A DNA stretch of 64,000 nucleotides from Halopenitus malekzadehii (GCF_900108505.1 NZ_FNWU01000001.1:124001-188000); one strand, 5' to 3'; shown: positions 14,014 to 45,655, counted from the stretch's first letter. Notes: generated by a model not told the origin, from the sequence alone. Translations and numbers: made by a program.

Positions 14014-14023
14014 TTGTGGTTAA
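14014..14023 (+). promoter_or_regulatory. TTGTGGTTAA motif upstream of livJ (candidate operator)
   Basis: This exact 10-mer recurs on the opposite strand at 19184-19193, at the promoter of the acyl-CoA operon, and its core TTGTGGT recurs at 25593-25599 before the local regulator gene. Here it sits about 40 nt upstream of the livJ TATA box. Shared control is an inference. Confidence 0.45.
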
Positions 14024-14058
14024 CACTCTGTCTGCAAAATCGGATATAGTTACCAAAG

Positions 14059-14067
14059 TTATTTATT
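14059..14067 (+). promoter_or_regulatory. TATA box of the livJHMGF operon
   Basis: TTATTTATT lies 26-34 nt before the ATG at 14093, the archaeal TATA spacing for a leaderless transcript. The region 14030-14070 is the most AT-rich for several kilobases. Confidence 0.65.
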
Positions 14068-14092
14068 CGGGCGTCCGGAATAGGCGTTCAGA

Positions 14093-15397
14093 ATGTCACG
14101 ATCTAACAGGCGACAAGTGCTGCGACGACTCGGCGGGGCCGCGACCGCGGCGGGAACGTTCGGATTCGCCGGGTGTATGGGGAACGGAAACGGTGGCGGC
14201 AACGGGAACGGCGGCAACGGCAATGGCGGCGGCAACGGTGCAACAACGGGCACGACTGGCGATACACTCGAGATCACGATCGGCTGTCCGACCGCTCTCA
14301 GTGGTGCCTTCGCTCCCAACGGTGAAGCCGAACGTGACGGCGGCCAGCTGGCGATTCGCCATCTCGAGAACGATCTCGATGTCTCCGTCGATCTCGTCAC
14401 TGCGGATACCGAGGTCGACCCCTCGGTCGCCGTTGAGCGACTCGAGGGAATGGTCGTCGAGGACGGCGTTCACGCCGCCTACGGCGGCGTCTCCTCCGCG
14501 GTCGGGATCGCGATGGGGTCGTGGGGGTCGGACAACCGCGTTCCGTTCTGTCCCCACGGCGCCTCCGACGACATCACCGGCGCCGAGTGTTCCGAGTACA
14601 TGTTCGCGACCTACTCCGGGAACTCGATGCAGGCTTCCGTCGCGGCCCCGCAGATGGCCGAACAGGCCGACGACTGGTACATCCTCTACTCGGATTACAC
14701 CTGGGGACAGACCGCAGAAACCATTTTCACGGAAGTCCTTGAGGAGAACGGCTCGAACGTGATCGGCTCCTCGGCGGTCCCGTTCCCGGCGGACGACTAC
14801 ACTTCCTACCTCAACACGGCCGAGGAGGCCGATCCCGACGGGATCGCGCTGTTGGTCGCCGGGCTCGACCAGCGGACCTCGATGAATCAGCTGCTCAGCG
14901 TCGGTCTGGAGCAGGACTACACGATCGCGATGCACCAGCTCGAGGACGTGAACCTCTGGGGCGTCGGCCAGGAAGCCGCCGCCGCGATCGACGTCGCCAG
15001 CCAGGGGTGGCTCCCCTCCCTCGACGTACCGGCGGACTGGATCTCGGAGATCCGCGAGATGTCCGAACACGAGCCATACGTCCGCCACTATATGGGCTAC
15101 ACGTCCGTCGACCAGCTCGTCCGCGCCGCGGTTCGGGCCGGCTCGACCGACGGTGAAGCGATCAAGAACGAACTCGAGGGCCACGAGGTCGAAAGCGAGC
15201 GTGTTCGGGCGCTGCAGCCCTCCGAAGAGTCGCTCTACTGGCGCGCCGCCGACCACCAGCTGGTGCAGCCGGTCTATGCCAGCGCGGGACGGGCGGTTGA
15301 GGACATGGAGTCCGACCCCGACCGCTGGTTCGAGGTCATCGACCGGATGCCCGGCGAGGAGGCGGCCGGGGAACCGAGCGCGGAGTGCGAGCTGTAG
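14093..15397 (+). CDS. livJ: ABC importer substrate-binding lipoprotein, branched-chain amino acid type (LivJ-like)
   Basis: An extracytoplasmic periplasmic-binding-protein-like receptor of 434 residues. The N terminus has a twin-arginine motif (NRRQVLRRLGG, residues 5-15), a hydrophobic stretch and a lipobox ending FAGC (Cys about 28), so it is expected to be exported folded by Tat and anchored by lipid. A Gly/Asn linker (about 30-50) follows, which is typical for haloarchaeal lipoproteins. The mature part has the type I fold of leucine/amide-binding receptors (ITIGCPTALSGAFAPNGEAE). The ligand could be a branched-chain amino acid, an amide, urea or a short organic acid; the adjacent acyl-CoA genes favour a carbon source. 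First gene of a five-gene operon. Confidence 0.9.
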   Translation: MSRSNRRQVLRRLGGAATAAGTFGFAGCMGNGNGGGNGNGGNGNGGGNGATTGTTGDTLEITIGCPTALSGAFAPNGEAERDGGQLAIRHLENDLDVSVDLVTADTEVDPSVAVERLEGMVVEDGVHAAYGGVSSAVGIAMGSWGSDNRVPFCPHGASDDITGAECSEYMFATYSGNSMQASVAAPQMAEQADDWYILYSDYTWGQTAETIFTEVLEENGSNVIGSSAVPFPADDYTSYLNTAEEADPDGIALLVAGLDQRTSMNQLLSVGLEQDYTIAMHQLEDVNLWGVGQEAAAAIDVASQGWLPSLDVPADWISEIREMSEHEPYVRHYMGYTSVDQLVRAAVRAGSTDGEAIKNELEGHEVESERVRALQPSEESLYWRAADHQLVQPVYASAGRAVEDMESDPDRWFEVIDRMPGEEAAGEPSAECEL

Positions 15398-15403
15398 GGT
15401 TCG

Positions 15404-16426
15404 ATGTCGGTCGCTACACTCGCGTCGACGCCCGACGAGCTGCCCTCGATCCCGTGGTTACTTGCGGGTCTCGCGCTGCTGGCGGTGGTGATCGTCACCC
15501 TCGCCGTGCGTCCGCAGCTGTTCATCAGCAACCTCGTTGGTGGACTCGTCTACGGGATGATCCTGATGATGATCGCGTTGGGGCTGTCGCTGATCCTCGG
15601 GCTGCTCGGCGTCGTCAACTTCGCACACGGCGCGCTGTTTATGCTCGGTGCGTACGGCGCGTATCAGACCGTCGCGTTGTTCGAGCTCCCCTTCTGGCTC
15701 GCGTTGGTCGTCGTTCCGATCGGCGTCGGACTGCTCGGCGTGCTGATGGAGGTGACGGTCCTCCGGCGACTCTACGGGGAGGACCCGCTTATCGGCCTGC
15801 TTGCCACCTTCGGGGTCGCGTTGATGCTCGAGGAAGCGACCCGCGCCCAGTGGGGCGGCACGCCGCTGAGCTTCGACCCGCCGGCCGTGCTGCGGGCGTC
15901 CGTCCAGGTTGGATTCCTCGAGATCGCGACCACGCGGCTGTTCACCGCCGCCGTCGGCGCGCTCGTGGTCGGCGGTCTCTATGTGCTGATGTACCGAACC
16001 GACTTCGGGCTCTCGATCCGCGCCGGGCTCCAGGACCAGCAGATGGCCGAGTTCCTCGGCATCGACATCCCGAAACGGTTCACGATCGTCTTCTTCATCG
16101 GCGCGGCGATCGCCGGGTTGAGCGGCGTGCTCCGTGGTGCCGAGGTCGGGATGGACCTGGGGATGGGGATGGACTTCGTCATCCTCGCGTTCGTCGTCAT
16201 CGTCGTCGGCGGGCTCGGCAGCATCTTCGGAAGCGTCGTGAGCGCGCTGTTGATCGGCGTCGCGGTCTTCGTCACGCCGGTGATGCTTCGGGCGGCCACG
16301 ACCGTGGCCGGCCTCGAGTGGCTGTACGTCTCCGGGATCGGCGGGCTGATGCCGTTCCTCGTGATGATCGGCGTCCTGCTCGTCCGTCCGCGTGGCCTCT
16401 TCGGTGAGGAGGGGTTACTCGAATGA
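15404..16426 (+). CDS. livH: Branched-chain amino acid-type ABC permease (LivH-like)
   Basis: An integral membrane permease of 340 residues with about eight to ten hydrophobic segments. LivH-family landmarks include LVYGMILMMIALGLSLILGLLG after the first segment region, NFAHGALFMLGAY (about 76-88), and a cytoplasmic loop (SIRAGLQDQQMAEFLGIDI) that is the coupling contact for the ATPase. It follows livJ by 6 nt and overlaps livM by 4 nt. The first about 45 residues (ASTPDELPSIPWLLAGLALL) form an extra N-terminal hydrophobic segment compared with bacterial LivH. Substrate is set by LivJ and is unknown. Confidence 0.93.
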   Translation: MSVATLASTPDELPSIPWLLAGLALLAVVIVTLAVRPQLFISNLVGGLVYGMILMMIALGLSLILGLLGVVNFAHGALFMLGAYGAYQTVALFELPFWLALVVVPIGVGLLGVLMEVTVLRRLYGEDPLIGLLATFGVALMLEEATRAQWGGTPLSFDPPAVLRASVQVGFLEIATTRLFTAAVGALVVGGLYVLMYRTDFGLSIRAGLQDQQMAEFLGIDIPKRFTIVFFIGAAIAGLSGVLRGAEVGMDLGMGMDFVILAFVVIVVGGLGSIFGSVVSALLIGVAVFVTPVMLRAATTVAGLEWLYVSGIGGLMPFLVMIGVLLVRPRGLFGEEGLLE

Positions 16427-17520
16427 GTGACGCGACCGAACCGACGGCGGACGGACGCGACCGGCTGCTCGCGTCCATTAGCCGTTACCAGGTCCCGATC
16501 GGGATCCTGCTGCTCGTGGGTCTGTTGCGTCCCGTCATCGCCCACGACGCCCTGTTGGGAAGCAGCTACATCGCGTCCTCGATGCTGATCTGGATGCTGT
16601 TCGCGGCGGCGTTCAACCTCCTATACGGGTACAGCGGGCTGCTCTCGTTCGGCCACGCGATCTTCCTCGGCACCGGCATTTACGGGGTCGCGATCGGGTT
16701 GCGCCACTTCGATCTCCCGTACCTCGTTGCCGCGCCGATCGGCGTGATCGTCGCCGGGCTGATCGCCTACGGGATCGCCCGGCTCATCGTCGGTTACGGG
16801 GAGATCTACTTCGCGATGTTGACGCTCGCGTTCGCGGAGGCGATCCACTTCGTGGTCAACGCCGATCCCTTCGGGCTGACCGGCGGCGCCGACGGGCTTC
16901 GCTCCGGCACGACGCCGGGATGGATCGAGAGCTTTCGCGGACAGAGCGTCGTCCAACTCGGCGGCGGCGAGTTCGACCTCTATTATTTCGTCGCGATCGT
17001 CTTCGTTCTCGCGACCCTCGCGCTCTGGCAGATCGTCCGGTCACCGTTCGGCCGGACGCTCGTCGCCATCCGCGACAACGAGGAGCTCGCACGGGCGATG
17101 GGAATCTCGACCGCCCGGTACCAGGTGTGGGCGTTCACCCTGTCGGGCATCTTCTCGGCGATCGCCGGGACGCTGCTCGTGATCCGGAACTCGGGTGCCT
17201 CCCTCGAGAACTTCGGGATGATGACCGGCGCCGAGGTCATCCTGATGTCGATCTTCGGCGGGATGAGCTACTTCTTCGGCCCGATCGCCGGGGCGTTCTC
17301 CTGGTTCTTCGCGCGGGAGTATCTCACGAACCTGGAGATGGTGGCCGTTCCGCTTTTGGGAACCGTCGACGTCGGCCCGATCCTCGGCTACTGGCGGTTC
17401 TTCTTCGGGTTCCTCTTCGTCGTCGTGATCGTGCTTTCGCCGCGGGAGGGACTGTGGGGATTCGTTCGGTCGATCGCCGACCGCGTGCGACGCCGCCTTA
17501 CCGAGGTGATCCGTGAATGA
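16423..17520 (+). CDS. livM: Branched-chain amino acid-type ABC permease (LivM-like)
   Basis: The second transmembrane subunit, 365 residues. LivM hallmarks are the AAFNLLYGYSGLLSFGHAIF segment (about 60-80), YFAMLTLAFAEAIHF, and a coupling loop VAIRDNEELARAMGISTARY (about 208-227). About ten membrane segments are predicted by eye. It overlaps livH upstream and livG downstream by 4 nt each, so stoichiometric translation is likely. The N-terminal 25 residues are charged and cytosolic. Together with LivH it forms the heterodimeric channel. Confidence 0.93.
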   Translation: MSDATEPTADGRDRLLASISRYQVPIGILLLVGLLRPVIAHDALLGSSYIASSMLIWMLFAAAFNLLYGYSGLLSFGHAIFLGTGIYGVAIGLRHFDLPYLVAAPIGVIVAGLIAYGIARLIVGYGEIYFAMLTLAFAEAIHFVVNADPFGLTGGADGLRSGTTPGWIESFRGQSVVQLGGGEFDLYYFVAIVFVLATLALWQIVRSPFGRTLVAIRDNEELARAMGISTARYQVWAFTLSGIFSAIAGTLLVIRNSGASLENFGMMTGAEVILMSIFGGMSYFFGPIAGAFSWFFAREYLTNLEMVAVPLLGTVDVGPILGYWRFFFGFLFVVVIVLSPREGLWGFVRSIADRVRRRLTEVIRE

Positions 17521-18395
17521 CCGACACATCGTCCGACGACGCGACCGAAGCGGAACGCGTGACCGACGACGCGACCGACCCGGCGTCCGTAACTGGCCCG
17601 GGAACTGACCACGAATCGCTTGACCCGACCGAGGCGGCCCTCGGTGCACGCGGGCTCACGAAGCGGTTCGGCGAGCTCACCGCGGTCGGCGGGGTCGACC
17701 TCGCCGTCCCGGAGGGCGAACTCCGCGCCATCATCGGCCCGAACGGTGCGGGCAAGACCACGTTCTTCAACGTCCTGACGAACGCGCTGGAGCCGACCGC
17801 CGGCGCCGTCTATCTCCACGGTGAGGAGATCACCGGCACGCCTCAGTACGCCCGGCCACACGACGGGCTCGTCCGATCGTTCCAGTCGAACCAGCTGTTC
17901 ACCGAACAGACGGTCCACGAGAACGTCCGGATCGTCGCCCAGACCGCCGAACAGGGCGCGTTCTCGCTGGACCTTCTCGGGCGCGGTCGCGATCTCGCGA
18001 CCGAACGCGCCCACGAGGTCCTCGAGCTGACCGAGCTCGACGATCTCGCCGAGGAAACGGCCAAGAACCTCTCCCACGGCGACCAGCGCCGGCTCGGGAT
18101 CGCGATGGCGCTGGCGACCGACCCGAGCGTGCTCCTGCTCGACGAGCCGACCAGCGGGCTCGGTGCCGTCGAGACCGAGACCACCGCCGACCTCATCGAG
18201 GACATCCAATCCGAGCTCGGACTCACCTTGTTGCTGATCGAACACGATATGAACATCGTCCTCTCACGAAGCGACCGAATCACCGTTCTTCACCGCGGCG
18301 AGGTACTAACGACCGGAACGCCCGAGGAGATACGCAACGACGACGCGGTCCAGGAGGCGTACCTCGGCGAGCGTGACGAGGAGGGATCGCTGTGA
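17517..18395 (+). CDS. livG: ABC importer ATPase LivG-like
   Basis: A nucleotide-binding subunit of 292 residues. Walker A is GPNGAGKTTFFNVL (about 79-92), the signature region is NLSHGDQRRLGIA (about 182-194), where LSHGD replaces the textbook LSGGQ as often seen in LivG, and Walker B is VLLLDEPTSGLG (about 204-215), followed by the H-loop in LIEHDMNIV. An acidic 40-residue N-terminal extension rich in Asp, Thr and Glu precedes the normal start of the domain. It overlaps livM and livF by 4 nt each and pairs with LivF to power import. Confidence 0.94.
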   Translation: MTDTSSDDATEAERVTDDATDPASVTGPGTDHESLDPTEAALGARGLTKRFGELTAVGGVDLAVPEGELRAIIGPNGAGKTTFFNVLTNALEPTAGAVYLHGEEITGTPQYARPHDGLVRSFQSNQLFTEQTVHENVRIVAQTAEQGAFSLDLLGRGRDLATERAHEVLELTELDDLAEETAKNLSHGDQRRLGIAMALATDPSVLLLDEPTSGLGAVETETTADLIEDIQSELGLTLLLIEHDMNIVLSRSDRITVLHRGEVLTTGTPEEIRNDDAVQEAYLGERDEEGSL

Positions 18396-19099
18396 GTCTC
18401 CTCGAGGTGTCGGGACTGGAGGCCGGCTACGAGACCGGACAGATCCTCTTCGGGATCGACCTCGCGATCGAGGAGGGCGAAGCCGTCGGACTGCTCGGCC
18501 GGAACGGTGCGGGCAAGACGACCACGATGCGGGCGATTATGGGCGCCGATCTCCCCCGGATCATCGACGGCTCGATCCGATATCGCGACGCGGAGCTGCT
18601 CGATCGGAAAAGCTACGACCGCGCGGATCAGGGGATCAGCTTCGTCCCGGAGGAACGCCAGCTGTTCCCGCGGCTGACCGTGACCGAAAACGTCCATATC
18701 GCTGCATCGGCGGCTGAGGACCCCCTACCGGCCGAGGAGATGTTCGATCTGTTCCCCGAACTCGACGAGATGCGCGATCGTCACGCGAAGAATATGAGCG
18801 GCGGCGAACAGCAGATGCTGGCGATCGCTCGCGCACTCGTGTCGAACCCGGACCTGATGCTGCTCGATGAGCCCTGTGAGGGACTTGCGCCCCAGATCGT
18901 CGAGCGGCTGGAGGACGTCGTCACCCGGATCAACGACGAACGCGGCGTGACGGTGCTCATCGTCGAACAGAACGTGGCGACCGCGATGGCCGTCGCGGAC
19001 CGTCACTACATCCTGGACGAGGGCCGGATCGTCGAGGAGGTCACCACCGACCGACTTCGGGAGGACGACGAGCTGCGTCAGCGACACCTCGGCGTCTAG
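18392..19099 (+). CDS. livF: ABC importer ATPase LivF-like
   Basis: The second ATPase subunit, 235 residues, the usual LivF length. Walker A is GRNGAGKTTTMRAI (about 37-50), the signature motif is NMSGGEQQMLAIARAL (about 134-149), and Walker B is LMLLDEPCEGLAP (about 154-166), with Cys in place of the usual Ser/Thr after EP. FVPEERQLFPRLTV is a strong LivF marker. It ends the importer operon; a 126-nt AT-rich control region separates it from the acyl-CoA genes on the same strand. Confidence 0.94.
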   Translation: MSLLEVSGLEAGYETGQILFGIDLAIEEGEAVGLLGRNGAGKTTTMRAIMGADLPRIIDGSIRYRDAELLDRKSYDRADQGISFVPEERQLFPRLTVTENVHIAASAAEDPLPAEEMFDLFPELDEMRDRHAKNMSGGEQQMLAIARALVSNPDLMLLDEPCEGLAPQIVERLEDVVTRINDERGVTVLIVEQNVATAMAVADRHYILDEGRIVEEVTTDRLREDDELRQRHLGV

Positions 19100-19134
19100 T
19101 CGGCGACGCGCTCGCCGCTCTCCCATCACTGATC

Positions 19135-19193
19135 TGGTTAACAGTGTATTCTTAATTCACTTCTAATCTTCATACTGTATTTTTTAACCACAA
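19135..19193 (+). promoter_or_regulatory. Promoter/operator region of the acyl-CoA operon
   Basis: An AT-rich stretch in GC-rich DNA. TATTTTTTA (19178-19186) is the likely TATA box, putting initiation near 19208-19212, before the ATG at 19226. TTAACCACAA (19184-19193) directly overlaps the downstream edge of the TATA box and is the exact reverse complement of the 10-mer upstream of livJ. A facing TGGTTAACA at 19135-19143 repeats the livJ-side 9-mer at 14017-14025. Overlap with the TATA box would suit a repressor. Confidence 0.5.
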
Positions 19194-19225
19194 CTTTGAA
19201 GGAGTATGTTAACGAAGTACGGGTG

Positions 19226-21166
19226 ATGACCGTAGACACAATCGACCGCGTCGCGGTACTGGGCGCGGGCAGTATGGGACACGGAATCGCCGAGGTCGCA
19301 GCGATCGGCGGCTACGACGTTGTCGTCCGCGACCTGGAGGACGAGCTCGTCGAGGACGGGCTCGAACAGATCGAGTGGAGTCTCGGGAAGCTCGCGGAGA
19401 AGGGCCGGATCGACGAGTCCGCCGATGACGTCTTCGCCCGCGTCGAGGGCACCACCGACCTCGAGGCGGCCGTCGAGGACGCCGATCTCGTGATCGAGGC
19501 CGTTCCCGAGCGGATGTCGATCAAGAAGGACACCTTCAGCGAGGTCGACGAGTACGCCCCCGATCACGCCATCCTCGCGAGCAACACCTCGGGACTGTCC
19601 ATCACCGAGATGGCGACCGCGACTGACCGGCCCGAGCAGGTCGTCGGGACGCACTACTTCAACCCGCCCATCCGGATGGATCTCATCGAGGTCGTCCACG
19701 GCGAGGAGACCAGCGAGGAGACGATCGAAACGATGCACGAGTACGCCGACTCGGTCGGCAAGACCGCCATCGACGTCAAAAAGGACGTCCACGGCTTCGT
19801 CGTCAACAACGTCCTCGTGCCGTTCATGGAGGAGCCGGCCTGGATGCTCGAGGAGGGACTGACGACGATCGAGGAGGCCGACGCGGCGATGGTCTATCAG
19901 CGCGGCTATCCGATGGGCCCCTTCGAGCTGTCCGACTACAGCGGGATCGACATCGGCTACCACTTCCGGGAGGACTCCCGGTACGAGGCGCCGCCGCCGA
20001 TCGAGCGCAAGGTCGAGAACGACGAACTCGGGCGCAAGACCGGGACGGGGTTCTACGAGTACGAGGACGGCGAGGGGACGACCTACGACTTCCACGACCG
20101 CGAGGGCTTCGACACCCTCCGCGTCGAGGCGCGGATGATCAACGAGGCCGCCAGGCTCATTGGCGAGGGCGTCGCCACCGCCGAGGACGTCGACCTCGGC
20201 ATCAGGCTCGGCGGTCGGTTCCCGATCGGCGTCTGCCGGCTCGCCGACCAGATCGGTCTCGACGTCGTTCTCGAGAAGCTCCGGTCGCTTCACGAGGAGT
20301 ACGGCGAGGATCGGTACGAACCGGCCGACCACCTCGTCGAGCTCGTGGAGGCGGGGAAGACCGGCGAGGACGCCGGCCTCGGTTTCTACGACTACCACGG
20401 CCAGTGGCCTTACCAGTTCCTCAACGTCGACCTCGACGACCGCGGCGTCCTCTCGATCGAGTTCGACCGCCCCGAACGGCTCAACGCGTTCTCCGAGGAG
20501 ATGTTCGCCGAGGTCCAGCGCGCCCTCGAGGACGCGCCCGTTGAGGACGTCTCCTGTGTCGTCTTCTCGGGGGCCGGCGACCAGTTCTCCGCCGGTGCCG
20601 ACATCACCGGCTTCCTCACGAACGCCCCCACCGAGATCATGGACGTCGAGGAATCCATCGAGACCGTCCACGAGTACCCCCGGCCGACGATCGCGAAGAT
20701 CGACGGCTTCTGTCTGGGCGGCGGCCTCGAACTCTCGTTGGCGTGTGACCTTCGGATCGCCTCCGAGCGCTCCACGCTCGGCAGTCCCGAGATCGACCTC
20801 GGGCTGATCCCCGGCGGCGGCGGCACACAGCGACTCACCCGGATCGTCGGCGAGACGCGCGCGAAGGAGCTCGTCTTCCGCGGCAACCACGTCTCCGCCG
20901 AGCGGGCTGCCGACTGGGGGCTCCTCAACCGCGCCGTCCCCGGCGACGAGTTCGAGGACGTCGTCGGCGAGTTCGTCGACGACATCGCCACCGGACCCAA
21001 GACGGCGCTGAAGGTGGCCAAGACGGTGATCAACGAGGGCCAGAACGCCAGTCTCGAGGCCGGCCTCGCGATGGAGAGCCAGGGCTTCGGCCTGCTGACG
21101 ACGACCGACGACGTGATCGAGGGCGTGGACGCCTTCCGCAATGATCGCGAACCGGAGTTCAAGTGA
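19226..21166 (+). CDS. Fused 3-hydroxyacyl-CoA dehydrogenase / enoyl-CoA hydratase
   Basis: A bifunctional beta-oxidation enzyme of 646 residues: the C-terminal half hydrates enoyl-CoA and the N-terminal half oxidises the resulting 3-hydroxyacyl-CoA with NAD. The dehydrogenase comes first, with Rossmann motif VAVLGAGSMGHGIAEVAAIGG (split here: VAVLGAGSMG at about 8-17) and GTHYFNPP with the catalytic His around 140. The hydratase follows from about 395, with FSAGADITGF (oxyanion loop) and IDGFCLGGGLELSLACD. This order is the reverse of bacterial FadB but is known in archaea. The ATG at 19226 is chosen; an upstream in-frame TTG at 19196 lies in the promoter. First gene of a three-gene operon. 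Confidence 0.93.
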   Translation: MTVDTIDRVAVLGAGSMGHGIAEVAAIGGYDVVVRDLEDELVEDGLEQIEWSLGKLAEKGRIDESADDVFARVEGTTDLEAAVEDADLVIEAVPERMSIKKDTFSEVDEYAPDHAILASNTSGLSITEMATATDRPEQVVGTHYFNPPIRMDLIEVVHGEETSEETIETMHEYADSVGKTAIDVKKDVHGFVVNNVLVPFMEEPAWMLEEGLTTIEEADAAMVYQRGYPMGPFELSDYSGIDIGYHFREDSRYEAPPPIERKVENDELGRKTGTGFYEYEDGEGTTYDFHDREGFDTLRVEARMINEAARLIGEGVATAEDVDLGIRLGGRFPIGVCRLADQIGLDVVLEKLRSLHEEYGEDRYEPADHLVELVEAGKTGEDAGLGFYDYHGQWPYQFLNVDLDDRGVLSIEFDRPERLNAFSEEMFAEVQRALEDAPVEDVSCVVFSGAGDQFSAGADITGFLTNAPTEIMDVEESIETVHEYPRPTIAKIDGFCLGGGLELSLACDLRIASERSTLGSPEIDLGLIPGGGGTQRLTRIVGETRAKELVFRGNHVSAERAADWGLLNRAVPGDEFEDVVGEFVDDIATGPKTALKVAKTVINEGQNASLEAGLAMESQGFGLLTTTDDVIEGVDAFRNDREPEFK

Positions 21167-22359
21167 CGATGACTGAAACCGCAGCGATCGTCGGCGGCGG
21201 CCTGACCGAGTGGGGCGAGCGCGAGGCCACCTGGAAGGACCTCGCTCAGGAGGCCGGCAAGGCGACCTTCGACGACGTCGACGGTCTCGACCAGTCGGAC
21301 GTCGAGGGCCTGTTCGTCGGCGCCGTCCAGCCGGAACGGTTCGCCTTCCAGAGCCACGTCGCGCCGCTCGTCGCGGAACTGCTGGGAATCGATGCCGATA
21401 TGATCTCGCGGACGGAGCTCGCGTGTGCGAGCGGCCAGGCGGCGCTCCGGTACGCGTGGCTGGCGATCGCCGCCGGCCAGATCGACGTCGCGCTGGTTCT
21501 CGGCGTCGAGAAGATGAACCTCGGGACGGAGTACATGCCCGAGATGCAGTCGACGATGACGAACGTGCTCGACCGCGAGTTCGACGGCGTCAACGGGCTC
21601 AACGGCCCCTCCCACTTCGCGCAGTTCGCCCAGCGGCACATGCACGAACACGGTACCACCCGCGAGCAGCTCGCGATGGTGAGCGCGAAGAACAAGAGCC
21701 ACGCCGCCGCGACCGACTTCGCGCAGTACCGCGAGGAGGTTTCGGTCGACGACGTCCTCGAGTCGTATCCGATCGCGCCGCCGCTGAACCTGCTCGACTG
21801 CAGCGGCATCACGGACGGCGCCGCCGGCGTGCTGCTCGTCAGCGAGGAGAAGGCGCGGGAGGTGACCGACACCCCGGCCTACATCACCGGCAGCGGCCAG
21901 TCGTGTCTCTCGAGCAACTCGATCAACAACCTGCCGTCGATGACGACCTGGCCCCAAGCGCGGGAGGCTTCCGAGAAGGCCTACGACCAGGCCGGCATCG
22001 AGGACCCGCTCGCGGAGATCGACGTCGCGGAGGTCCACGACTGCTTCTCGATCAGCGAGGTGATCGAGTACGAACAGCTCGGCTTCGCCGAGGAGGGCGA
22101 GGGCGGTGCCTTCATCGAGGAGGGTCGCAGCGAGCTCGACGGCGACGTCGCGGTCAACCCCCGCGGGGGCCTGCTCGGCTGTGGCCATCCGCTCGGTGCC
22201 ACCGGCGTCTGTCAGGCGCTTGAGGTTTATCGACAGTTCACCGGCGACGTGCCGGACGCGCGCGCGGTTGCGGGCGACCCGGAGACCGGCTTGATCCACA
22301 ACCTGAGCGGCAGCGGGTCGGTTCACAGCGTGATGACGCTTGGGAGGGATCCGCAATGA
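21163..22359 (+). CDS. Thiolase family protein (SCP-x-like acetyl-CoA acyltransferase)
   Basis: A thiolase of about 398 residues that would cleave a 3-oxoacyl-CoA with CoA, or run in reverse. Visible are the nucleophilic Cys in TELACASGQAALRYAW (about 87), the catalytic His in EVHDCFSISEVIEYE, and the C-terminal GCGHPLGATG with the second Cys. Sequence style and length are those of the SCP-x/archaeal subgroup, which works with a DUF35 zinc-ribbon partner, encoded immediately downstream with a 4-nt overlap. The start is either GTG 21163 (overlapping the previous stop) or ATG 21169, two codons later. The chain-length preference is unknown. Confidence 0.92.
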   Translation: MTMTETAAIVGGGLTEWGEREATWKDLAQEAGKATFDDVDGLDQSDVEGLFVGAVQPERFAFQSHVAPLVAELLGIDADMISRTELACASGQAALRYAWLAIAAGQIDVALVLGVEKMNLGTEYMPEMQSTMTNVLDREFDGVNGLNGPSHFAQFAQRHMHEHGTTREQLAMVSAKNKSHAAATDFAQYREEVSVDDVLESYPIAPPLNLLDCSGITDGAAGVLLVSEEKAREVTDTPAYITGSGQSCLSSNSINNLPSMTTWPQAREASEKAYDQAGIEDPLAEIDVAEVHDCFSISEVIEYEQLGFAEEGEGGAFIEEGRSELDGDVAVNPRGGLLGCGHPLGATGVCQALEVYRQFTGDVPDARAVAGDPETGLIHNLSGSGSVHSVMTLGRDPQ

Positions 22360-22841
22360 CGCGCGAGAACCCGCCCCGCGAGACGATCTCGATCCCGAAC
22401 GAGGTCGATCTCCCGCGACTGCTCGACTTCTACGACCTGCAGGACGCCGAACACACCGGGATCCACGAGTTCTACGACAACCTCCGGAACGGAGAACTCA
22501 CCACGACGACGTGTGACGACTGCGGGGCGGTCCACTTCCCTCCCCGGATCGTCTGTCCCGAGTGTCTGAGCGACGACCTCTCGTACACGTCGCTTCCCCA
22601 CGAGGGGACGCTCCACTCGTTCACCGAGGTCCGCGGCACCGCCGCGATCGGAATGACCGACGACACGCCGTTCGTCGCCGGCGTCGTCGACCTTGGCGAC
22701 GTGCGGCTGTCCGCACGGGTCGACGACGCGAGCCACGAGGACCTCGCGATCGGCGATCCGGTCCAACTGAAGATCGTCGACATCGACGGGCCGACCGACC
22801 AGGACCGGGTCTTCTACCGGTTCGTCCCGGTCGAGGACTGA
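22356..22841 (+). CDS. Zn-ribbon/OB-fold protein (DUF35, thiolase partner)
   Basis: A 161-residue protein of the DUF35/ChsH2-like type. A rubredoxin-like zinc ribbon with CDDCGAVHFPPRIVCPEC holds four cysteines in two CxxC knuckles (about 49-66), followed by an OB-fold that in relatives binds the CoA moiety. In archaea such proteins form a complex with the neighbouring thiolase and pass acyl-CoA between partners. The 4-nt overlap with the thiolase supports a physical complex. The N-terminal helix region (LPRLLDFYDLQDAEHTGIHE) may be the docking part. Last gene of the operon, with a strong hairpin about 130 nt downstream. Confidence 0.9.
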   Translation: MTRENPPRETISIPNEVDLPRLLDFYDLQDAEHTGIHEFYDNLRNGELTTTTCDDCGAVHFPPRIVCPECLSDDLSYTSLPHEGTLHSFTEVRGTAAIGMTDDTPFVAGVVDLGDVRLSARVDDASHEDLAIGDPVQLKIVDIDGPTDQDRVFYRFVPVED

Positions 22842-22970
22842 GCCGGGGTCTCCTGGGGCCGGTCTCGAGATCGGTCGCGGACCCGTTCGCCGATGTTCTC
22901 GTGACGCTCCGACGGTACGCTAACGCCGCTCTCGGTGGCGCTCCGCCTGGACGTCGACGGTACTCGTGAA

Positions 22971-22989
22971 AAACCGGAAAATCCGGTTT
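22971..22989. terminator. Perfect hairpin between convergent operons
   Basis: AAACCGGA and TCCGGTTT form an 8-bp stem with a 3-nt loop in the 202-nt spacer between the convergent thiolase-partner gene (stop 22841) and acyl-CoA synthetase (stop 23044). Position and symmetry suit a bidirectional terminator or 3'-end structure; archaeal termination mostly depends on T-runs, so the role is inferred. Confidence 0.5.
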
Positions 22990-23043
22990 CGACGGGACGA
23001 TCGGTCCGGGAACGAACCGGTCACGATGGGCTTTGCAGGCGTG

Positions 23044-24651
23044 TTACCCGACGTTCTTCTCCTCGTCGTCCCAGAACTCCTCGCGGAGCTCGTACTTCTG
23101 GATCTTTCCGGTCGAGGTCTGTGGGAGGGTTTCGCGGAACTCGACGCTCGTCGGGCACTTGTAGTGGGCCAGTCGCTCGCGGGTAAACTCGATCAGTTCG
23201 TCCTCGGTGAGGTCTGCTCCCTCCTGGGTCACGACCAGCGCCTTCGGCGTCTCGCCCCACTTCTCGTGGGGAACGCCGATGACTGCGGCGACCTGCACGT
23301 CGGGATGCTCGTAGATGACGTCCTGGACCTCGATCGTCGAGATGTTCTCCCCGCCGGAGATGATGACGTCCTTCTTCCGGTCGACGATCGTCAGCATCCG
23401 GTTCTCGTCCCAGGTCGCGATGTCGCCGGTGTGGAACCAGTCGTCGCGCCGGTCGTGGAACGCCCGGTGGGTCTCGTCAGGCTTGTTCCAGTAGCGGTCC
23501 AGCACCTGGTTGCCGCGGACGATGACCTCGCCTTGGGTCTCGTCGTCGGTCGGAACCGGATCGCCGTGTTGGTCAACGACGAGGATCTCCGTGTTGAGCG
23601 TCGCGAATCCGGGCTTGTTGATGATGTCGTATTTATCCCCTTGCTGGATCTTCCGTCGCGTGTTGCTCGTGGTCACGAGCGGTCCGGTCTCGGTGGCGCC
23701 GTAGGCGTGGATGATCCGCCAACCGAGTTCGTCCTCGACCTCGCGGATCGTGCTCTTCGGCGGCGGGCTCGCGGCCGTCTCGACGCGCACCGGCTTCTCG
23801 CCCGTCGACGGGACGTCGGCGTCCTCGTAGTAGTCCAAGAGCATGTTCAACACAGTCGGTGCGCCGCCGAGGTAGCTCACGTCGTGGTCGGCGATGCGCT
23901 CGAAGACGGTCTCGGGGTCGAACTGCTCGACGATGACGTGTTTGCCGCCGATGCCGGTGAGACCGTAGATGTGCCCCCAGCCGTTGATGTGGAACATCGG
24001 CGAGGTCCACAACAGCGTGTCGTCGTCCTCGAACTCGACGTGGTGGGAGTGGATCAGCGCGTGGTAGTGCTGGATCCGATGGGTGTGGACGACCCCTTTC
24101 GGGTTGCCGGTGGTGCCGCTGGTGTAGAGGATGGTCGCGTCGTCCTCCTCGGAGATGTCCGGACGGTCCGGCTGCTCCGGGGAGTGCTCGGCGAGCACGT
24201 CCTCGTAGCCGTGCCAGCCCTCGCCGGCGGCGTCGCCGTCGTAGGCGACCCACCGCTCGACCGAGGTTCCCGCCTCGGCGTCGGTCCCCTTGAGGTGGTC
24301 GACCTTCTCGGTGAAGCCCGTATGCGCGATCAGCACCGACGGGGCGCTGTCGTCGACGAGGTAGTCGTACTCGGTCGGCTGCAACCGGAAGTTGAGCGGC
24401 ACGAACAGCGCACCGATCTGCATCGTCGCGTACAGCGTCTCGATGAACCGGTGGGAGTTCGGCGTCAGCAGCGCCACACGGTCGCCCTTCTCGACGCCCC
24501 ACTCGAGCAGCGCGTTCGAGAGGCGATTGATGCGGTCGTTCAGCTCGTTATACGTGAACTCGGTCCCGTCCTCGGCGACGACGCCGACGTCGTCGCCGTA
24601 GAGCGTGACCGCCCGATCGAGATAGTCAGTCGTGAGTAGTGGTCGTTTCAT
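23044..24651 (-). CDS. Acyl-CoA synthetase (AMP-forming, fatty-acid CoA ligase type)
   Basis: Activates a carboxylic acid to its CoA thioester through an acyl-adenylate; 535 residues. Adenylate-forming motifs are all present: the P-loop ILYTSGTTGNPKGVVHTHR (about 172-190), YGATETGPL (about 302), the hinge WFHTGDIATWDENRMLTIVD with RKKDVIISGGENIS (about 410-445), and the catalytic Lys in LPQTSTGKIQKYELRE near 510. The acid substrate (medium chain, aromatic or branched) cannot be told. It converges on the beta-oxidation operon and belongs functionally with it. An AT-rich block at 24793-24820 is the likely promoter, implying a leader of over 100 nt. Confidence 0.94.
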   Translation of the reverse strand: MKRPLLTTDYLDRAVTLYGDDVGVVAEDGTEFTYNELNDRINRLSNALLEWGVEKGDRVALLTPNSHRFIETLYATMQIGALFVPLNFRLQPTEYDYLVDDSAPSVLIAHTGFTEKVDHLKGTDAEAGTSVERWVAYDGDAAGEGWHGYEDVLAEHSPEQPDRPDISEEDDATILYTSGTTGNPKGVVHTHRIQHYHALIHSHHVEFEDDDTLLWTSPMFHINGWGHIYGLTGIGGKHVIVEQFDPETVFERIADHDVSYLGGAPTVLNMLLDYYEDADVPSTGEKPVRVETAASPPPKSTIREVEDELGWRIIHAYGATETGPLVTTSNTRRKIQQGDKYDIINKPGFATLNTEILVVDQHGDPVPTDDETQGEVIVRGNQVLDRYWNKPDETHRAFHDRRDDWFHTGDIATWDENRMLTIVDRKKDVIISGGENISTIEVQDVIYEHPDVQVAAVIGVPHEKWGETPKALVVTQEGADLTEDELIEFTRERLAHYKCPTSVEFRETLPQTSTGKIQKYELREEFWDDEEKNVG

Positions 24652-24792
24652 GGGTGTCGTTCAGTGACGTGTGGTGGGTCGTGGTCGTCCAGCGCGTCGC
24701 GGTGTCCGCCTCGGTGTGGTCTCCGCCGGTGATTGCGGCGGTCGATCGCCACGTGAGTGTGACTCTCTGACGATGCCTTCGCCAACGGGATA

Positions 24793-24820
24793 CCATATTT
24801 TACATAGTAATTTAAACTTT
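24793..24820 (-). promoter_or_regulatory. AT-rich promoter block upstream of the acyl-CoA synthetase
   Basis: The minus strand here reads TTTAAATTA and GTAAAATAT within about 28 nt, unlike the GC-rich surroundings. It lies 142-169 nt before the ATG at 24651, so the transcript would have an unusually long leader for a haloarchaeon. No clear copy of the TTGTGGTTAA motif is present. Confidence 0.4.
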
Positions 24821-24901
24821 CGGGAATTCTTTCCAATCGATACGATCGGCTATCGATGGTGATCGACGTCGTCGGGATGGAGTCGGTCGCTCACCGCACG
24901 T

Positions 24902-25378
24902 TCACTCCGTCGAGAGGCGCCGATCGCCCACGACCAGGTCGGCGGCCGTATGCTCCCCGTTCTCGCCGTAGCGTGCCGTATACTCCATCAGCTGGAACAG
25001 CGTACCCGTCGGATTGCGGGGGGAGACGAACGCTTCGATCCACTCGTCGTACGCCGCCCGATCGACGATCTCGAAGCCGGCCGCTTCGAGCGTCGCCGTC
25101 ATCGCGTCGATGTCGGCGACCTCGATCGTGACGTGATGGAGGCCGGGCCCGTGCCGGTCGAGGTAGTCGGTGAGGAACGACTCCTCGGCGACCGGCTCGA
25201 TGAGTTCGATCCGGGAGCCTCCGCCCAGCTCGTAGTAGACCCAGCGGAACCGGTCCTCGACGACGTCGTCGACCAGCCGCCGACATCCCAAGGCCGTCAG
25301 CAGCGGCTCCGCCGACTCGACGTCCTCGACGGCGATTCCGACGTGGTCGACCCGCGCGCGTGGTGCGTCTTCACCCAT
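24902..25378 (-). CDS. VOC family protein, methylmalonyl-CoA epimerase-like
   Basis: A 158-residue vicinal-oxygen-chelate protein with two beta-alpha-beta-beta-beta modules. The metal ligands are visible: His in VDHVGIAVEDVE (about 11), Glu in GSRIELIEPV (about 59), His in LHHVTIEVADID (about 81), and Glu in LFQLMEYT near 137. This arrangement matches methylmalonyl-CoA epimerase, which racemises the product of propionyl-CoA carboxylation from odd-chain or branched-chain degradation. The mutase gene, which often adjoins it, is not here, so another VOC activity is possible. A minus-strand TTAATTAACA-like TATA about 25 nt before the ATG suggests a leaderless transcript divergent from the regulator. 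Confidence 0.82.
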   Translation of the reverse strand: MGEDAPRARVDHVGIAVEDVESAEPLLTALGCRRLVDDVVEDRFRWVYYELGGGSRIELIEPVAEESFLTDYLDRHGPGLHHVTIEVADIDAMTATLEAAGFEIVDRAAYDEWIEAFVSPRNPTGTLFQLMEYTARYGENGEHTAADLVVGDRRLSTE

Positions 25379-25432
25379 AGGTCGTCATTGCCGTACACAT
25401 TGTTAATTATTGCCGTCGATCGTTGTCGTCGC

Positions 25433-25484
25433 TTGCCGTCACCACTTGCCGTCACCACTCTCCGTCGCCGCTTGCCGTGTCGCG
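25433..25484. repeat. Degenerate 13-nt tandem repeat (TTGCCGTCACCAC type)
   Basis: Two exact copies of TTGCCGTCACCAC (25433-25445, 25446-25458) are followed by diverged copies to about 25484, in the spacer between the divergent VOC and regulator genes. The composition is pyrimidine-rich on the plus strand, like the repeat at 8677. Confidence 0.5.
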
Positions 25485-25566
25485 CACCGTTGCCACCTGC
25501 TGTCGTCGCCGCTCGTTGCCGTCGACGTCACTCACGATCCCGTTTCCGACGCGGCGTCGGACGGTG

Positions 25567-25611
25567 GAATTATTTACCACCCACAACATACATTGTGGTA
25601 TGAATTACCAC
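25567..25611 (+). promoter_or_regulatory. Promoter with overlapping palindromes before the winged-helix regulator
   Basis: GGAATTATTTA (from 25567) is TATA-like. Downstream are two perfect, overlapping inverted repeats: CCACAA-N6-TTGTGG (25581-25598) and GTGGTA-N5-TACCAC (25595-25611). They would cover the transcription start predicted near 25598. A protein that binds here could repress the gene directly, most simply by autoregulation. The TTGTGG half-site is shared with the livJ and acyl-CoA operon control regions. Confidence 0.55.
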
Positions 25612-25658: not shown

Positions 25659-26303
25659 ATGAGCGACGCCGACGAAACGGCCGACGGAACGGCCGGCTCG
25701 GAAGACGAACCCTCCGAAGCCGACGCCGCCGAGGATCCGACCGAAAGTTTCTCACCCGCCGGGCAACGTCACTCCCTACGTGAGATGACCGACACCGAAC
25801 CCGAGTGGGACTTCAAGGAGCGCGACGTACTGATCCTCCGGGAGCTGGCTCGGGATCCGCAGCTGTCGGCCCGGGAGCTGACAGACGTCCTCGAGGCGGA
25901 ACACGGGATCGACGTCTCCCACGTCACCGTGAGCAAGTCGATCCGGAACATGCGCGACGCGAACGTCTTCCGGGAGGCCATCCTGCCGAACGAGGCGTAC
26001 TTCAGCTTCTCACTGTTCGAGTTCCAGTTCAACCCCGAACACTTCGAGGACGGCTGGCGCGACGCGATGGAGCACATCCGGGAGGACAAGAGCACGCTGT
26101 TCTACTTCCTCTGTGACGGCGCCTACCAGTGGCGCGCCGTGATGATGTTCCCGGATGGCGAGGCCGAGTCGAAGTGGATCCACGAGTTCTACAAGGAACA
26201 CGGCAAGGTGATCAACAACCTCCGGAACCACGCGTTGACCAACGTCCTCAAGTTCGGCACCGATCCGGAGCTGTTCGAGAACATCACCGACGGTCAGCAG
26301 TGA
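25659..26303 (+). CDS. Winged-helix (Lrp/AsnC-type) transcriptional regulator
   Basis: A 214-residue cytosolic DNA-binding protein. After an acidic 50-residue N terminus comes an Lrp-like winged helix (WDFKERDVLILRELARDPQ, LSARELTDVLEAEHGIDVSH, VTVSKSIRNMRDANVFREA; about 46-105). The C-terminal half (FSFSLFEFQFNPEHFEDGW to FGTDPELFEN) is not a standard Lrp RAM domain that I recognise and may sense an acyl-CoA or amino acid. The ATG at 25659 is the first sensible start after the promoter; the frame extends upstream only through repeats. Its place beside VOC, ligase and beta-oxidation genes and the palindromes in its promoter make it the likely local controller. Confidence 0.82.
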   Translation: MSDADETADGTAGSEDEPSEADAAEDPTESFSPAGQRHSLREMTDTEPEWDFKERDVLILRELARDPQLSARELTDVLEAEHGIDVSHVTVSKSIRNMRDANVFREAILPNEAYFSFSLFEFQFNPEHFEDGWRDAMEHIREDKSTLFYFLCDGAYQWRAVMMFPDGEAESKWIHEFYKEHGKVINNLRNHALTNVLKFGTDPELFENITDGQQ

Positions 26304-26370: not shown

Positions 26371-26452
26371 CGCCGGGAGAGGGATTTGAACCCTCGATCC
26401 CGTGAGGGAACACGCTTTCCAGGCGTGCGCCTTGCCACTCGGCCATCCCGGC
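26371..26452 (-). tRNA. tRNA-Ser (anticodon GGA)
   Basis: On the minus strand: acceptor GCCGGGA/TCCCGGC, anticodon stem CACGC/GCGTG around CTGGAAA (anticodon GGA), a long variable arm typical of tRNA-Ser, and T-loop TTCAAAT in stem GAGGG/CCCTC. Discriminator is G; no CCA is encoded and there is no intron. Length is 82 nt. Confidence 0.95.
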
Positions 26453-26479
26453 TCGATTCGTCCTACTGCCGTCCTACTG

Positions 26480-44212: not shown

Positions 44213-45655
44213 TCACCGACCGAAGAGCCGGCCGAAGAACCCCCGGTCGTCGTCCTCGTCGTCATCGGCCCCGTCCTCGCTCCGGGATCGGTCGTCGTTC
44301 ACCGTCGATCCGTCCACGTCCGCCTCTCCACCAGTGTGAGCGGCGACCCGGTTCGTGTCGCTTGCACCGTCCTCGGCGGCCGTGTTTGCCCCCCGTTCCG
44401 GCTCACGCCCGTCGTCATCACGGAACGGGACGCTTCCGACGTCGGTGTCGGTGTCCGTATCGACGTCGGCCGTTGCGTCGACGGTCGATTCCCGTCCTCT
44501 CTCGTCGTCGGCGTCGTCCGCGGTATCCACTTTGTCCGCGGTATCCGCTTCATCCGTCTCGCTCGCTTCGTCCGCGGTATCCGCTTCGTCCACGGTATCC
44601 GGTTCGTCCACGGTATCTGCTTCGTCCGCCCCATCCGTTCCAGGTGCGTCATCGACGGCGTCTCCCTCGGCATCGCGGATCGTCGGTGGGTCCTGTTGAC
44701 CGATGATCTCCCCGTCCGCATCCACGTCCCGGGTGCCTCTCTCCCGATCCCTGTCCGTGAGATCGCCAGTCGTCATCTCGACGTCGGGGGTGGACCCATC
44801 CGCGGGTTCCGGCGTCGAGCCGTCGGCATCGATCCCCGGATCAGGATCACTCGTCTCTCCGCTTGTGGTGGACTCGGACGTGTCTCCGACCGCGGCGGAC
44901 TCGACCATCTCCTCGACTGCGGTGGATTCAGTCGGTTCCGGATCCGGAATCGACACTCCCGTGAGCTGTTCGGTTAGCGTCCGATACGCTCGCGTTGCGG
45001 GCGCCGTCGGTGCGAACGTGACGAGCGGTTCGCTTGCTGTGACCGCTGTCGCGACGGCGTCGTCCTCCGGGATCCGTTCGTGGATCGGCACGTCGAGGTG
45101 GGAAACGATCAGGTCATCGTGCCCGTGGGGGTCGTCGGGATCGACGCGCGTGATAACTGCGCCGTCGACCCGCCCGCCGAGCCGATCGGTCAGTTCGCCT
45201 GTTTTCGCCGTATCCCGCAGCGCTTCCCGTTCGGGGGTCGACACGAGCAGCGTTCGATCGGCGATACCCAGCGGCAGCGCCGAGTCGTGTGAGAGCCCCG
45301 CGCCGGCATCCAGGATCACGTAGTCGGCGTCATCGAACGCGTCGACGACGTCGCCGAGACGGGCGGGATCCGCCTCGGCGTACGCGTCCAGGTCGGTTTG
45401 CCCCGGAAGGACCCGAAGGCCGTGCGGGCCCTCCTGAGCCGCGTCTTCGGGATCCGCACGGCCGGCAAGCACGTCGTGGATCGTCTCGCCCTTGACCGTG
45501 ATCCCGAGTGCGCCGGCGAGGTTTGCCATCCCGAGGTCGGCGTCGATCGCCACGACTGCCTCCGATCCGTCCGCAAGGAGCGTCGCGATCGACGCCGCCG
45601 TCGTCGTCTTTCCGACGCCGCCCTTCGCCGAGGCGATCGCATACACCGTTGCCAT
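44213..45655 (-). CDS. MinD/ParA-type ATPase with long acidic tail and membrane-targeting-like tip
   Basis: A 480-residue protein. The first about 240 residues are a deviant-Walker ATPase: IASAKGGVGKTTTAASIATL (7-26), DADLGMANLAGALG (about 38-51), DYVILDAGAGLSHDS (about 108-122). Residues about 250-465 are a low-complexity Asp/Glu/Thr/Ala tail with DEADTVDEPDTVDEADTADE-like repeats. The final GFFGRLFGR closely resembles the amphipathic membrane-targeting end of bacterial MinD. MinD homologues in Haloferax help place motility and chemoreceptor structures at poles. The ATG at 45655 follows a minus-strand CTTTTAAGTA TATA box. No MinC or MinE gene is present. Confidence 0.9.
   Translation of the reverse strand: MATVYAIASAKGGVGKTTTAASIATLLADGSEAVVAIDADLGMANLAGALGITVKGETIHDVLAGRADPEDAAQEGPHGLRVLPGQTDLDAYAEADPARLGDVVDAFDDADYVILDAGAGLSHDSALPLGIADRTLLVSTPEREALRDTAKTGELTDRLGGRVDGAVITRVDPDDPHGHDDLIVSHLDVPIHERIPEDDAVATAVTASEPLVTFAPTAPATRAYRTLTEQLTGVSIPDPEPTESTAVEEMVESAAVGDTSESTTSGETSDPDPGIDADGSTPEPADGSTPDVEMTTGDLTDRDRERGTRDVDADGEIIGQQDPPTIRDAEGDAVDDAPGTDGADEADTVDEPDTVDEADTADEASETDEADTADKVDTADDADDERGRESTVDATADVDTDTDTDVGSVPFRDDDGREPERGANTAAEDGASDTNRVAAHTGGEADVDGSTVNDDRSRSEDGADDDEDDDRGFFGRLFGR

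Follow-up and report, generated by a model that had tools for sequence, protein, structure and literature searches.

Candidate local operators at the promoters of an acid-uptake and beta-oxidation-type gene block in Halopenitus malekzadehii

A 64,000-nucleotide stretch of the Halopenitus malekzadehii genome (the window, whose coordinates are used throughout) carries a block consisting of livJHMGF, a 3-hydroxyacyl-CoA dehydrogenase/enoyl-CoA hydratase fusion (HAD), a thiolase, an OB protein, a ligase, a VOC protein and a regulator. The block encodes a branched-chain-type importer, a beta-oxidation-type dehydrogenase/hydratase fusion, a thiolase with its OB partner and an acyl-CoA ligase, and the VOC protein is methylmalonyl-CoA-epimerase-like. 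The initial annotation had noticed words shared by three control regions of this block and proposed one local regulon, run by the winged-helix protein encoded at 25659 (the 25659 protein). The features of the livJ, acyl-CoA operon (HAD) and regulator promoters are listed in Table 1. The positions of start sites and TATA boxes were judged by eye and from conservation; a sigma-70/terminator scan is uninformative for archaea.

Table 1. Genes and promoter elements of the block, in window coordinates
Feature	Position	Strand	Remarks
livJ upstream site TTGTGGTTAACA	14014..14025	+	genus-conserved part GGTTAACACTCTGT, from 14018
livJ proximal half-site GTTACCA	14049..14055	-	abuts AAAG/TATA element; invariant in three species
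Probable livJ TATA element TTATTTATT	14059..14067	+	by eye and conservation
livJ, substrate-binding protein (Peripla_BP_6), first gene of livJHMGF	14093..15397	+	profile match
TGGTTAACA element, acyl-CoA operon promoter	19135..19143	+	TTAACAGTRTAT conserved in genus
Probable TATA-like element TATTTTTTAA, acyl-CoA operon	19178..19187	+	by eye
TTGTGGTTAA (TTAACCACAA on + strand)	19184..19193	-	ACCACAA, then TTGAA, GTTAA; four genera, few substitutions
GTTAAC, near inferred transcription start	19208..19213		21 bp (two helical turns) from ACCACAA
HAD fusion, first gene of acyl-CoA operon	19226..21166	+	conserved start ATG 19226
Dyad 1, TGGAA-TTATT-TACCA	25565..25579		over probable TATA AATTATTT
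CCACAA-N6-TTGTGG inverted repeat	25581..25598		sole exact copy in genome; without conservation in two sister species
TTGTGGT core of the initial annotation	25593..25599	+	window match, regulator promoter
Dyad 2, TGGTA-TGAAT-TACCA	25596..25610		arms invariant in three species
Candidate regulator: winged-helix domain and RAM-like ferredoxin fold, no named family	25659..26303	+	profile, model and fold searches

Every match stated by the initial annotation was found at its coordinates. TTGTGGTTAA lies at 14014-14023 (+ strand) and 19184-19193 (- strand), and TGGTTAACA is common to the same two promoters, starting at 14017 and 19135. Pattern searches of the 3.14-Mb genome, the source of all genome-wide counts, found TTGTGGTTAA exactly twice in 3,136,824 bases, both times in the window's livJ and acyl-CoA operon promoters. 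The core TTGTGGT is matched five times within the window (14014, 19187 on the - strand, 25593, 44863, and 51204 on the - strand); three are in control regions, and those at 44863 and 51204 are inside coding genes, named by eye as a ParA/MinD-like and an ATP-synthase-subunit-A-like open reading frame (ORF). The enrichment that had been suggested as a check was not found across the genome. TTGTGGTWA has 6 copies versus 11 for its reversed control, and GGTTAACA has 9 versus 10; the other genomic copies of both lie mostly within genes or at unrelated genes. A genome-wide regulon was rejected because neither pattern is commoner than its reversed control, and therefore any regulon would be local.

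The livJ and HAD control regions have a GC content of 43%. When the three control regions were shuffled with dinucleotides kept, at least one common 10-mer appeared in 8.7% of trials (P = 0.087). In the same test, P was 0.016 for the four shared 9-mers and 0.003 for the nine shared 8-mers. The argument that AT-rich 10-mers should be rare in this DNA was too strong, and the shared 10-mer alone is weak evidence because the control regions are AT-rich. The single-genome case for the shared words is suggestive only. Chance matches among AT-rich promoters would fit both the shuffling result for the 10-mer and the absence of genome-wide enrichment. We consider this explanation very unlikely, as the core recurs at orthologous promoters of other genera, and conservation is strong and spacing constant at the HAD and regulator promoters.

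Of the family's 171 genomes, 42 have relatives of the regulator gene. The same block (livJ, acyl-CoA operon and winged-helix gene) was found in six genomes, which belong to four genera. The complete block is syntenic in two species of the same genus (L052 and L053) and rearranged in the genomes G086 (L054), G024 (L057) and G040 (L062), where livJ and HAD are divergent and the regulator is near. A close HAD orthologue (at least 75% identity) occurs in just these six of the 171 genomes, and the regulator gene adjoins the block in each of them. A set of 11 promoters from four genera, one species each, was searched with no motif given. ACCACAA (TTGTGGT on the other strand) was the top common 7-mer, present in 6 of the 11 promoters, and no 7-mer was common to more than 4 promoters in any of 200 shuffled sets. 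The fixed core TTGTGGT occurred in three of the eight promoters outside the window (expected 0.10; as many in 0 of 2000 shuffles), matches that are not fully independent because two share one spacer. GGTTAA occurred in four of these eight (expected 0.45; P = 0.0005). The data indicate that the core is conserved at orthologous promoters in other genera, a second check that the initial annotation had called for.

The livJ and HAD promoters of G086 share the 13-mer ATTTCACCACAAT, each copy pointing to its own gene, which repeats the initial observation in another genus. The livJ/HAD spacer of L054 (15958-16499) contains two inverted copies of ATTTCACCACAAT and one of TTACCACA. Two of the 14 genomic copies of TTGTGGTRA in G086 are within this 541-bp spacer (P = 2.5e-6, which is only indicative because the pattern was picked after the copies were seen).

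Within the genus, TTTTAACCACAA, TTTGAAGG and TGTTAACGAAGTACGG of the HAD promoter are nearly unchanged. The order ACCACAA-TTGAA-GTTAA was found at HAD in four genera, and the spacing from ACCACAA to GTTAA is constant at 21 bp. The genus and G040 have the first word exactly as ACCACAA; G086 reads ACCAGAA there and G024 reads CCCGCAA. Neither ACCACAA nor TTGTGGT was found within 170 bases upstream of 15 HAD homologues (about 63% identity). The candidate shared operator is thus conserved at orthologous promoters and missing from control promoters. Copies of the motif overlap or abut TATA-like elements and probable starts, as would be expected if it were a core-promoter or initiator element in general use in these archaea and no operator. 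The low genomic counts of TTGTGGTTAA and TTGTGGTWA and the missing ACCACAA at the 15 HAD homologues largely refute this explanation, to which we give hardly any credence. Two further observations were made at this promoter. At 19140-19178, the words AACAGTRTAT and ATACTGT, separated by about 30 bp, form another conserved inverted pair, and related words were found in G024 and G040. The mechanical ORF of the HAD gene begins at TTG 19196 (19196-19226); ATG 19226 is favoured as the start for its conservation and because the upstream sequence is out of frame in L062.

In the livJ promoter, GGTTAACACTCTGT and ATATAGTTACCAAAGTTATTTATT are kept within the genus and the preceding TTGT is not. The conserved part of this promoter consists of GGTTAACACTCTGT together with GTTACC beside the TATA box, and TTAACC-type half-sites lie at a similar livJ position in L062 and L057.

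In the regulator promoter, TTGTGGT is present at 25593 as the initial annotation reported, and a larger dyad and an inverted repeat there had been missed. Dyads 1 and 2 are 15 bp each and 31 bp apart (three helical turns); AATTATTTACCACCC and TGGTATG-ATTACCA are kept within the genus. The G086 regulator promoter has GGTAATTATTTTACC and GGTGAGTGTGTTACC at the same place, 32 bp apart. In G040 (L062), TGGTA-AGTAG-TACCA precedes the acs-regulator unit (acs-wHTH, winged helix-turn-helix). Among the window and 34 neighbouring loci, exact TGGTA-N5-TACCA is confined to regulator promoters. Each genome has it in 1 to 4 places, and four copies examined outside the blocks were in coding sequence or at unrelated genes. 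TGGTA-N5-TACCA was rejected as a universal operator, being missing from the blocks of G086, G024, G101 and G102, and CCACAA-N6-TTGTGG was rejected as a conserved operator, being unique to the window species.

Profile searches of the 25659 protein found no Pfam or NCBIfam family that reached cut-off. AsnC_trans_reg (PF01037) has no match in it and matches 11 other places in the genome; HTH_AsnC-type matches only 5 of 23 members with a best E of 0.02, below cut-off. The profile-profile match is restricted to the helix-turn-helix (HTH), residues 47-106, and the alignment has six additional residues ahead of the recognition helix. A structure model of moderate confidence (predicted local distance difference test, pLDDT, 66; predicted template-modelling score, pTM, 0.49) predicts helices at residues 54-65, 71-82, 91-100, 129-141 and 167-184 and strands at 116-124, 146-151, 157-164 and 185-193. 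The modelled architecture is a helix-turn-helix domain followed by a beta-alpha-beta-beta-alpha-beta (RAM-type) domain. In a Foldseek search against the PDB, the best 31 matches were Lrp/AsnC-type, with E from 3.3e-7 and prob 1.00, and they included the halophilic Lrp 8q90. Template-modelling (TM) scores of 0.3-0.5 and a root-mean-square deviation (rmsd) of about 12 leave it uncertain how the domains are arranged. The model predicts an Lrp/AsnC-like fold. We describe the protein as Lrp-like and do not file it as a member of the Lrp/AsnC family because the PF01037 match is absent and the HTH_AsnC-type match is below cut-off. Directly downstream of the regulator gene, a tRNA-like sequence was seen by eye only (26380-26460, - strand).

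The regulators associated with the block group in a single clade (support 98/97). Regulators adjoining a block have the recognition helix SHVTVSK[SA]IR[ND]MR, and those elsewhere have SHVTV[SN]E[ST][IL]R[RK]MR. The conserved words might be operators of a regulator whose gene lies outside the block, such as one of the 11 AsnC_trans_reg proteins, with the 25659 protein co-travelling or being a target. The genome indeed has 11 canonical Lrp/AsnC-domain matches, and G101 and G102 have a same-class regulator without the motif. Against this stand the regulator's position next to the block wherever a close HAD orthologue is present, the strongest dyads at the 25659 gene's own promoter, and the single clade and single recognition-helix class of the block-associated regulators. 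We regard a regulator encoded elsewhere as unlikely.

In this study, we believe that the repeated word is probably (at about two in three) all or part of a local, pathway-specific operator, and that the 25659 protein binds clusters of degenerate dyads as an Lrp/AsnC-like dimer. The local regulon proposed by the initial annotation is the best-supported reading in that the core recurs across genera and the regulator travels with the block; the parts that did not stand up are the shared 10-mer, which by itself is near chance, and TTGT at livJ, which is not kept. Several observations weigh against our reading. The sites are degenerate and non-identical between promoters, and the form of the candidate operator varies: the regulator and G040 acs promoters alone have clear dyads, and livJ and HAD have only half-sites. 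The livJ site is TTCGGTTAAC and CCGTGGTTAAC in two species of the same genus, where the left half TTGT is not kept, and neither is the CCACAA/TTGTGG repeat at 25581 kept in the sister species. At the G024 HAD promoter, GGTTAAC is present, but CCACAA occurs only as the variant CCGCAA. Two of the three promoters outside the window with TTGTGGT are in one G086 spacer, G101 and G102 (2 of the 15 distant HAD homologues) have a same-class regulator beside HAD/thiolase without ACCACAA, and the structure model is only moderate.

Sequence, conservation, co-location and fold class are observed here; that the 25659 protein binds these sites, whether it activates or represses each promoter, and what ligand it responds to are inferences. 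The dimer would bind clusters of degenerate dyads whose half-sites are (T)GGTWA / TWACC(A). The two dyads that cover the TATA box and probable start of its own gene suggest negative autoregulation. In the acyl-CoA operon promoter, the pair ACCACAA and GTTAAC, with its 21-bp spacing, sits just behind the TATA-like element and close to the start, which suggests repression. Sites over the TATA box and start at the regulator and HAD promoters suggest repression, and the livJ half-sites upstream of and beside the TATA box suggest, by analogy, activation; these signs are provisional because the start sites and TATA boxes were placed as described above. A pathway substrate or CoA ester would switch the regulon on.

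Bacterial FadR-type regulons have a specific regulator of acyl-CoA ligase and beta-oxidation genes, which is relieved by a pathway intermediate. FadR-type regulators differ from the 25659 protein in family and fold, so the likeness is analogy only. According to a review (PMC2995911), archaeal Lrp sites are 13-17 bp long, have an AT-rich centre and come in clusters spaced by two or three helical turns. The spacings of 31-32 bp between dyads and 21 bp between half-sites fit this phasing. Activation by archaeal Lrp bound a few bases upstream of the B recognition element (BRE) has been described (PMC2995911). Like LysM, Ptr2, Ss-LrpB and FL11 (archaeal Lrp/AsnC, feast/famine; PMC2995911), the modelled 25659 protein has an N-terminal helix-turn-helix and a C-terminal beta-alpha-beta-beta-alpha-beta domain. 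The candidate system may also resemble archaeal Lrp/AsnC systems in its putative clustered dyads with an AT-rich centre, a gene near its presumed targets and candidate sites at its own promoter (PMC2995911). It differs from them in the missing PF01037 match, the weak HTH matches, the six extra residues before the recognition helix, and its presumed targets, which are acid-uptake and beta-oxidation-type genes instead of amino-acid metabolism. Another divergent Lrp/AsnC-like protein of haloarchaea is CsmR of Haloferax volcanii, whose semi-palindromic site lies close to the TATA box (PMC13286277). Its site is TATCA-N4-TGATA, unlike the TGGTA-N5-TACCA and TTGTGGT found here, its targets are motility and shape genes, and the protein is smaller (PMC13286277).

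A literature search found no described haloarchaeal regulon for this gene set, and the operator and targets are known for only a small number of haloarchaeal regulators. The small regulon proposed here has a candidate operator, regulator and targets to the base pair, is conserved across genera, and is directly testable. If true, it would be a first handle on haloarchaeal control of organic-acid uptake and beta-oxidation-type breakdown, and a regulator family without a Pfam or NCBIfam model name would gain a function. A bolder and doubtful extension would make the 25659 protein the founder of a new family of haloarchaeal regulators that have an Lrp-like fold. Such a protein might sense an acyl-CoA or organic-acid ligand, not an amino acid, and might activate uptake and repress both its own gene and the breakdown genes by way of a single code of phased half-sites (TGGTA-N5-TACCA / TTGTGGT).

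The shared motif had no match upstream of the Halorubrum-type related regulators. These relatives have a nearly identical recognition helix, and most of their genes are near a second liv/acs operon. They keep another leader, TCCAAATACTGATTA(C/G)(C/G)GTGACG, about 20-60 bases upstream of the regulator match (L008-L016). The shared motif was also not found in the window's acs promoter, which has another conserved block. This acs ligase promoter block of about 45-50 bp, GATTGGAAAGAATTCCCGAAAGTTTAAATTACTATGTAAAATATG (24775-24840, - strand), lacks TTGTGGT, is near-identical in three species, and is perhaps the site of another regulator.

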